A DNA stretch of 32,725 bases from Candidatus Dependentiae bacterium. GTDB lineage: Bacteria; Babelota; Babeliae; Babelales; Vermiphilaceae. Positions 4,615 to 5,682 of this stretch are shown piece after piece (position 1 is the stretch's first letter; each line of letters begins with the position of its first letter). The position numbers were made by a program, and so were the translations under genes. Below the pieces are notes generated by a model. It saw only the letters and a program-made list of their open reading frames with translations, was not told the DNA's origin and did no database searches. Location of the stretch: contig JAPLIR010000022.1 in NCBI GenBank assembly GCA_026389015.1, positions 1-32,725 on the forward strand. Reading direction: 5' to 3'.

Positions 4615-5682
4615 TCATTCACCAAAATAATCTTGGCACCGCTGTAACAGCCTGTCAAATTCATGGTGATTAGTGGTGAGTGAATCTTCTCCACGCTTGA
4701 AGGTAATGCCAAGAATTCCCGATTCTCGCGGCGCGTAATAGATTAATTCGTCGCGCTTTTTACCCAGTGCATCGGTCATTACGACTTTAACATTAATCAT
4801 ATATTGAAGTTCATCTAGAGGTGATTGGTCTTTTAGCGTAATGAGATGTCCTTGAACAGGAATCAAGCGTTTATCGCCTGTGAGTGTTTTTGCTCCAAGG
4901 CCGGCGCAATTAAAAATAATTGACTCATTGCATTCATCAAAAGATGATACTTCTTTTTTTTCAATTGAGATATTGAGTTCATCAACATTACGTTGTAACT
5001 CTTGCATGATCGCAGCTGAATTAATAAACACCGTGTGGTAGGCCATTGCTTCATACGTTTTGCCATTATTAAAATCGATGGTCACCTGCTCTGGTTGTTG
5101 TACGAGTCCTTGTTCAATATACGGCGCAAAGCCAGGGTCGATATCAAGACCAAAATAAGCGGGTAATAATTTTGGACCTTGTTTAATGAAGGGGTGGGTG
5201 CCATTGATTATTTCCAAGAACGTTTTATATGATTCCATACCCATGGCTTGAAAGATTGCCTTTTCGTGCGTTGTAGACGATTTACGGTGGCGTGGAAAAA
5301 AGAAACCAGCGGATTTATTTGATGGAATGTTTTTTGTTTCTTTGGCGATGATATGGACAGTATGTCCTTTACGCCTTAACATAATTGCGGTGAGTAGGCC
5401 GTAGCATCCAGCACCAATGACGACAATGGACTTGTTTTGTAACGTTGCATTGCGTGAATGTTCATCTTCAAATTGACTGATCGATTCATTAACGCAACCA
5501 AAAAGAAAAGTCCAACCAGCGCCACCATGTCCATAATTATGACAGACTAATTTGTTGTCGTGCATTTGGGTGAACACCTGAAATATTCGTTCGCGGTGTG
5601 CGCGAATGCAGGTTATCTTTTCCTTAATATGTTCAGGAGTTATGCGGGGTGGGGTGAGGTGAATGATTTTTTTTGTATTCAA
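4615..5682 (-). CDS. D-amino-acid-oxidase-like FAD oxidoreductase with circularly permuted motif order
   Basis: A 355-residue flavoprotein of the DAO superfamily. The FAD-binding motif IVVIGAGCYG is at residues 86-95 rather than the extreme N-terminus. After it come SAGFFFPRH (124-132), YHTVFINSAAIM (215-226), IIFNCAGLGAKTL (255-267) and IPVQGH (274-279), in the same order as in D-amino-acid or D-aspartate oxidases. The motif that normally ends those enzymes, HNYGHGG, is here at residues 48-54, ahead of the Rossmann fold, together with the preceding arginine-containing strand (CIRAHRER). The C-terminus (FKRGEDSL onwards) matches the region that normally precedes it. The start is a TTG at 5682 without a clear ribosome site; an in-frame stop lies 18 bases upstream, so the reading frame cannot extend much. 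No signal peptide. Substrate unknown. Confidence 0.82.
   Translation of the reverse strand: MNTKKIIHLTPPRITPEHIKEKITCIRAHRERIFQVFTQMHDNKLVCHNYGHGGAGWTFLFGCVNESISQFEDEHSRNATLQNKSIVVIGAGCYGLLTAIMLRRKGHTVHIIAKETKNIPSNKSAGFFFPRHRKSSTTHEKAIFQAMGMESYKTFLEIINGTHPFIKQGPKLLPAYFGLDIDPGFAPYIEQGLVQQPEQVTIDFNNGKTYEAMAYHTVFINSAAIMQELQRNVDELNISIEKKEVSSFDECNESIIFNCAGLGAKTLTGDKRLIPVQGHLITLKDQSPLDELQYMINVKVVMTDALGKKRDELIYYAPRESGILGITFKRGEDSLTTNHHEFDRLLQRCQDYFGE

Follow-up and report, generated by a model that had tools for sequence, protein, structure and literature searches.

The gene at positions 4615..5682 (minus strand) of the window, i.e. the whole 32,725-nucleotide stretch of DNA that was analysed, most probably codes for a natural circular permutant within the D-amino-acid oxidase (DAAO) branch of the DAO (GR2) flavoenzymes, a reading to which we assign a probability of roughly 0.87. 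The open reading frame specifies a 355-residue protein that matches the Pfam DAO family (PF01266, E=1.7e-20) and is read from a TTG codon at 5680-5682. This start is probably right because three relatives (L003, L005 and L006) also carry TTG at the homologous place, and other relatives have ATG or GTG close to it. All features of the gene given below lie on the minus strand. The N-terminal block of the protein (residues 9-75; 5458..5658) corresponds to residues 254-318 of canonical DAAO, where they are C-terminal. It contains the sequence CIRAHR (residues 25-30; 5593..5610), the counterpart of the DAAO GxRPxR motif with R27 and R30 at the R283 and R286 positions, respectively, followed by the FAD/active-site strand HNYGHGG (residues 48-54; 5521..5541), which was recognized by motif reading and by matches to DAAOs in the PDB; the longer HNYGHGGAG (residues 48-56) supplies the YGHGGxG strand. 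The gap between the two aligned blocks (residues 76-83; 5434..5457) marks the join of the canonical C-terminus to the canonical N-terminus. The second block (residues 84-353; 4624..5433) corresponds to canonical residues 2-256, there N-terminal, and includes the GxGxxG dinucleotide-binding motif GAGCYG (residues 90-95; 5398..5415) within a VVIGAG stretch that begins at residue 87. Further landmarks are NCAGLG at 258, IYYAP at 314 and the C-terminus RCQDYFGE (residues 348-355); an alignment of 108 permuted sequences places Y315 (4738..4740) at the position of DAAO Y228 (Y-x-x-P). An earlier note on this DNA had described HNYGHGG and its arginine strand as preceding the Rossmann motif, and this is the order seen (residues 25-54 as compared to 90-95). 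No second HNYGHGG-like motif occurs elsewhere in the 355 residues, including the C-terminus.

The swapped block order is evident in profile comparisons. A canonical HMM was built from 11 canonical bacterial DAAOs whose order was checked (the Rossmann motif leads and HNYGHGG lies close to the C-terminus). It matches the window protein with a score of 147.9 bits, divided over two adjoining segments whose order is swapped; model positions 3-258 correspond to residues 83-352 and positions 259-312 to residues 11-67, such that the blocks meet at model 258/259; the best of 50 shuffled versions of the window sequence reaches 1.3 bits. A profile search of the DNA gives a match of the canonical DAAO profile to 4624-5436 (model positions 4-260). 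When the protein is rotated by 70-85 residues, where the score is maximal, the two HMM matches (110 and 36 bits) become one collinear match of 149 bits. The prediction that a permuted comparison would score far better thus holds, as moving the N-terminal ~80 residues to the C-terminus raises the single-domain score from 110 to 149 bits, and it is with the family model and this single-domain score that the rotation test is clear. When the un-permuted single sequence was compared to PDB chains by phmmer, the total score was not raised (1c0i, 47.3 bits both ways), because HMMER adds separate stretches and a single sequence is too distant. With the native order, phmmer aligns residues 301-330 of human DAAO, the C-terminal HNYGHGG region of the PDB DAAOs, with window residues 42-71, and DAAO residues 3-26 and 133-204 with residues 86-109 and 215-282, i.e. 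out of order. Alignment of the Dependentiae permuted sequences against the canonical alignment using hhalign pairs residues 84-353 with 2-256 (E=1.6e-35) and residues 9-75 with 254-318 (E=5.4e-16). The two blocks together tile the whole canonical protein of 324 residues with their order swapped.

The predicted structure of the window protein was compared to canonical enzymes. Its AlphaFold2 model has a mean pLDDT of 93.8 and a pTM of 0.92, and the 33 best PDB matches found by Foldseek are all DAAO or D-aspartate oxidase. These alignments reach a TM of about 0.5-0.6 over ~285-305 columns, a value confined to this range because Foldseek keeps chain order, whereas a model of a canonical bacterial DAAO used as a control (L131, pLDDT 89.6) aligns to the same PDB entries with a TM of about 0.9 over ~335 columns. 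Following rotation, the secondary-structure elements of the two models match one to one, as judged by comparing lists of elements: strands E19-30, E35-41 and E44-50 and helix H60-77 of the window protein correspond to E264-274, E279-282, E289-293 and H299-322 of the control, and the elements from E86-89 to H339-353 correspond to those from E3-7 to H242-255. The clearest extra element is a short strand, E5-8. As modelled, the window protein has the overall DAAO fold.

The permuted order recurs in many relatives. In the Dependentiae the gene is present in 27 of 101 genomes at 24-69% identity, among them the complete genome of the isolate Noda2021 (AP025250.1, L035), a strain described in PMC8812299. 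Two weak Dependentiae matches, L029 and L030, resemble sugar-nucleotide dehydrogenases and were left out of the count. Residues R27, R30, G51, G54, G56, G90 and G92 are invariant in the Dependentiae permuted alignment (26 sequences), and the permuted gene has a dN of ~0.2 with saturated dS, from which strong purifying selection follows. The canonical profile detected no canonical-order DAAO in the 101 Dependentiae genomes; its strong matches are all in permuted order, and its sole non-permuted match (G049) is weak and confined to the Rossmann region. A profile search of genome contigs retrieved 80 loci, essentially all of which place HNYGHGG before the Rossmann motif, and inclusion of plasmid records and more genomes brought the total to 132 permuted hits, whose breakpoints all fall in one shared region of the canonical model. 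Outside the Dependentiae the permuted order occurs in Chlamydiota, Alpha-, Beta- and Gammaproteobacteria, Bacteroidota, Actinomycetota, Planctomycetota, Verrucomicrobiota and Acidobacteriota; many of these sequences come from MAGs, whose taxon labels may be wrong, and isolates that carry the gene include Caulobacter segnis, Rhizorhabdus, Asticcacaulis, Acetobacter pomorum, Polynucleobacter, Lunatimonas, Marisediminitalea, Nonomuraea and Bradyrhizobium. It is present in 12 of 190 genomes sampled from the class of Caulobacter and in 13 of 151 sampled from the phylum of one Chlamydiae MAG. In another setting, a Chlamydiae MAG contains two permuted oxidases in tandem (L038:3772-6095), with a diverged HNYGHGG in the first, and four MAG copies (L031, L072, L080 and L015) are broken by a frameshift or stop, possibly as pseudogenes or assembly errors. 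A close-relative scan of viral contigs gave no match to the permuted gene; a profile scan of viral contigs gave three permuted copies, all on short contigs, and no full-length phage match to the protein was found. The conservation of the order across about eight phyla means that it is a natural variant, both old and functional. The observation made in the earlier note is thus confirmed, and its interpretation as a circular permutation at one point is supported by the HMM blocks, the rotation, hhalign, AlphaFold2 with Foldseek, and about one hundred distinct homologues (a complete isolate genome included) that hold the N-terminal segment in the same ORF. Neither a foreign N-terminal segment nor a C-terminal HNYGHGG was found.

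The relationship between the two orders was explored using a tree of 108 non-identical permuted sequences out of the 132 hits, rotated back, together with 11 canonical rows. All 108 permuted rows lie on one side of a branch that separates them from the canonical rows (SH-aLRT 95). This suggests that the permutation took place once and long ago, with the qualification that the tree was quick, lacked bootstrapping, contained few canonical rows and was unrooted as to permuted versus canonical. The permuted DAAOs are thus apparently a widespread family of single origin. A canonical row nested among permuted ones in a first tree was due to L153, a divergent DAO of another kind (branch length 4.48), which was removed. 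An apparent second Rossmann domain in L098 and L106 was likewise discarded, as its GxGxxG-like match, located before HNYGHGG, falls within an N-terminal extension that precedes the enzyme domain and is probably an export signal.

How the swapped order arose, and whether it could be spurious, was considered alongside these data. The TTG start and an A-rich run at the very beginning of the reading frame could be taken to mean that a frameshift, an assembly error or fusion to a neighbour placed an unrelated HNYGHGG segment upstream, but the gene in the window is a single uninterrupted frame with a conserved start-codon position, and both the order and the breakpoint region are repeated in 27 Dependentiae genomes, many phyla, isolates and a complete genome; an artefact has a negligible probability and is, by comparison to these homologous sequences, refuted. 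A descent of canonical DAAO from an ancestral permuted form would be compatible with a tree unrooted as to the two groups, but we regard it as very improbable, as other DAO/GR2 families (glycine oxidase, DadA and sarcosine oxidase) place the Rossmann motif first; the NCBIfam models for ThiO and DadA accordingly align from model position 1-2 onward, beginning at window residues 84-86. With the permuted order as the derived one, its route may have been a tandem duplication that lost both outer ends, for which the tiling of the canonical protein by two blocks without loss is the expected outcome; fission and re-fusion, or shuffling of a C-terminal piece, is a less likely route that nonetheless deserves some weight, as the retrieved loci include no tandem DAAO-DAAO fusion that could be an intermediate. 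In structural terms, permutation would have cut the canonical chain in the loop that follows the helix preceding the GxRPxR strand (canonical model ~256-259) and joined the former C-terminal helix to the former N-terminal Rossmann strand via a linker of ~8 residues, with folding of the permuted chain expected to restore the DAAO fold and to position FAD between both pieces.

The conservation of active site residues bears on what the enzyme does. The GxGxxG fingerprint (G90, G92 and G95 in the window protein) is kept in 107-108 of the 108 permuted sequences; the R283 position is arginine in 106 and the R286 position arginine or lysine in 107, while GHGG shows almost no variation. In the window protein, alanine replaces the GxRPxR proline (CIRAHR). 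GxRPxR and YGHGGxG are described as signatures of bacterial DAAO in PMC9844085, and these signatures together with the kept R283, R286, GHGG and Y228 positions make D-amino-acid oxidative deamination the likeliest activity. Judged by its sequence, the window protein would therefore most likely catalyze the FAD-dependent oxidative deamination of a D-amino acid; it is predicted to bind FAD, to act on a D-amino acid or a close imino/amino-acid substrate, and to pass electrons to O2 (as an oxidase) or to an electron carrier (as a dehydrogenase). In the proposed reaction, R27 (R283 position) and Y315 (Y228 position) would grip the substrate carboxylate, a hydride would move from the alpha-carbon to FAD, and the resulting imino acid would be hydrolysed to a keto acid and ammonium. 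The Y228 position tells against this reading in part, as it is tyrosine in 72 of the 108 sequences and another residue in the remaining third, although all 14 listed members of the window's own clade have tyrosine; the active-site tyrosine is also not universal in bacterial DAAO (PMC9844085). The alanine in place of the GxRPxR proline and the low identity to characterized DAAOs (~20%) also count against it. A permuted DAO-fold enzyme with a substrate other than a D-amino acid (for example glycine or sarcosine, an imino acid, an opine or a modified amine) is conceivable, though we consider it rather unlikely. Glycine oxidases have the same fingerprint and RP pair (PMC9844085), the best weak NCBIfam match of the window protein is the glycine oxidase ThiO (34.6 bits, cut-off 250.8), and the DAAO lid residue Y224 is not conserved when the Dependentiae permuted sequences are aligned with 8hy5. 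However, the PDB rankings by both sequence and fold place DAAO and D-aspartate oxidase clearly above glycine oxidase, and the full GxRPxR and HNYGHGG pair is that of bacterial DAAO.

One branch of the family is distinguished by a Tat-type RR motif, which is present in the N-terminal extension of 35 of its 36 members. A cytochrome c gene follows the permuted oxidase in Kozakia (by annotation) and in L097, L101, L107 and L109 (by a CxxCH motif), which suggests that the enzyme is a dehydrogenase there. On the Kozakia baliensis plasmid (L116:229-6526), serine hydrolases, another FAD oxidoreductase and a TonB receptor are encoded near the oxidase and cytochrome c genes. The window protein has no signal peptide visible by eye and no cytochrome c neighbour. 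It is an even bet whether one ancient permutation founded a large undescribed family that is the sole form in Dependentiae, that extends to further bacteria infecting protists (some Chlamydiota, Rickettsiales and Holosporales), and that diverged into one cytoplasmic branch and one exported by the Tat system, with part of the exported enzymes acting as dehydrogenases that feed cytochrome c.

The genes around the oxidase were also inspected. Downstream of it lies an RF-1-domain gene (4153..4584, minus strand; Pfam RF-1, E=3.5e-22) for an ArfB/YaeJ-like peptidyl-tRNA hydrolase. Among the 13 closest clade members, 7 have such a gene downstream in the same orientation (in two of these as the second ORF), and one further member has it next to the oxidase on the other strand; relatives with the downstream arrangement are L004, L005, L006, L007, L010 and L011. 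This neighbour gives no metabolic hint and no good functional link to the oxidase. Elsewhere in the window, three tandem collagen-like proteins (448-455 residues, Pfam Collagen) adjoin several family-2 glycosyltransferase genes (14778-18895, minus strand, and 8457-14689), an arrangement that suggests glycosylated, collagen-like proteins on the surface of this intracellular bacterium. A fourth collagen-like ORF is located at 3339-4067. A 131-residue cysteine-rich protein with regular cysteine spacing and no significant Pfam match (2854-3249, plus strand) looks, by eye, like a small helical metal-storage protein of the Csp type. Small MazE/AbrB-like ORFs (5802-6113 and 6134-6442) precede tandem paralogues that appear alike by eye (6619-7395 and 7434-8381, plus strand), the second of which lacks a Pfam match, and 30636-32093 (minus strand) encodes a protein with Schlafen AlbA_2 and RecG-C-terminal-like ATPase domains. 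On two rhizobial plasmids (L114:3360-7687 and L117:3482-7708), the permuted oxidase is flanked in one operon by an FAD-binding oxidoreductase on one side and a thiamine-pyrophosphate enzyme on the other.

DAAO is a textbook flavoenzyme that is used in industry and in biosensors and is a drug target. The existence of a natural family whose chain is cut and rejoined elsewhere reveals a dispensable joint of its fold, and the permuted enzymes supply ready-made new termini for fusions and sensors. As canonical-order models give two hits and mask the true order, a branch of bacterial D-amino-acid metabolism may be overlooked, which may notably concern intracellular bacteria of protists. None of the NCBIfam models (ThiO, DadA, MnmC and others) matches the window protein above its curated cut-off, and no curated NCBIfam family for permuted DAAO was found. 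A natural circularly permuted DAAO is unreported in the searchable literature, which omits most subscription papers; the family is new to that literature and may have been mentioned earlier elsewhere.

The best PDB matches of the window protein by both sequence and fold are canonical DAAO and D-aspartate oxidase (DASPO) enzymes, at ~20% identity, and all of the PDB matches listed for it are in canonical order. The protein shares its fold, the GxGxxG, GxRPxR and HNYGHGG motifs, and the R283 and Y228 positions with human DAAO (2DU8), human DASPO (6RKF) and Rhodotorula DAAO (1C0K), but differs from them in its swapped blocks, in ~10 extra N-terminal residues that hold the short strand E5-8, and in the loss of Y224. 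Similarly, canonical bacterial DAAOs (the Streptomyces enzyme L113, as well as L131-L140, of the type described in PMC9844085) are alike in GxRPxR and YGHGGxG and give a whole-length profile match, whereas their Rossmann motif comes first and HNYGHGG is near the C-terminus. The swapped order therefore sets the window protein apart as a permuted DAAO variant and not a canonical member. ThiO, sarcosine oxidase and DadA (GR2) have the DAO Pfam family and general fold in common with it, but are much weaker matches and have the canonical order. A like event is seen in the circularly permuted GTPases such as NOA1 (PMC3100308), in which the permuted form also became a family of its own, although on a different fold.
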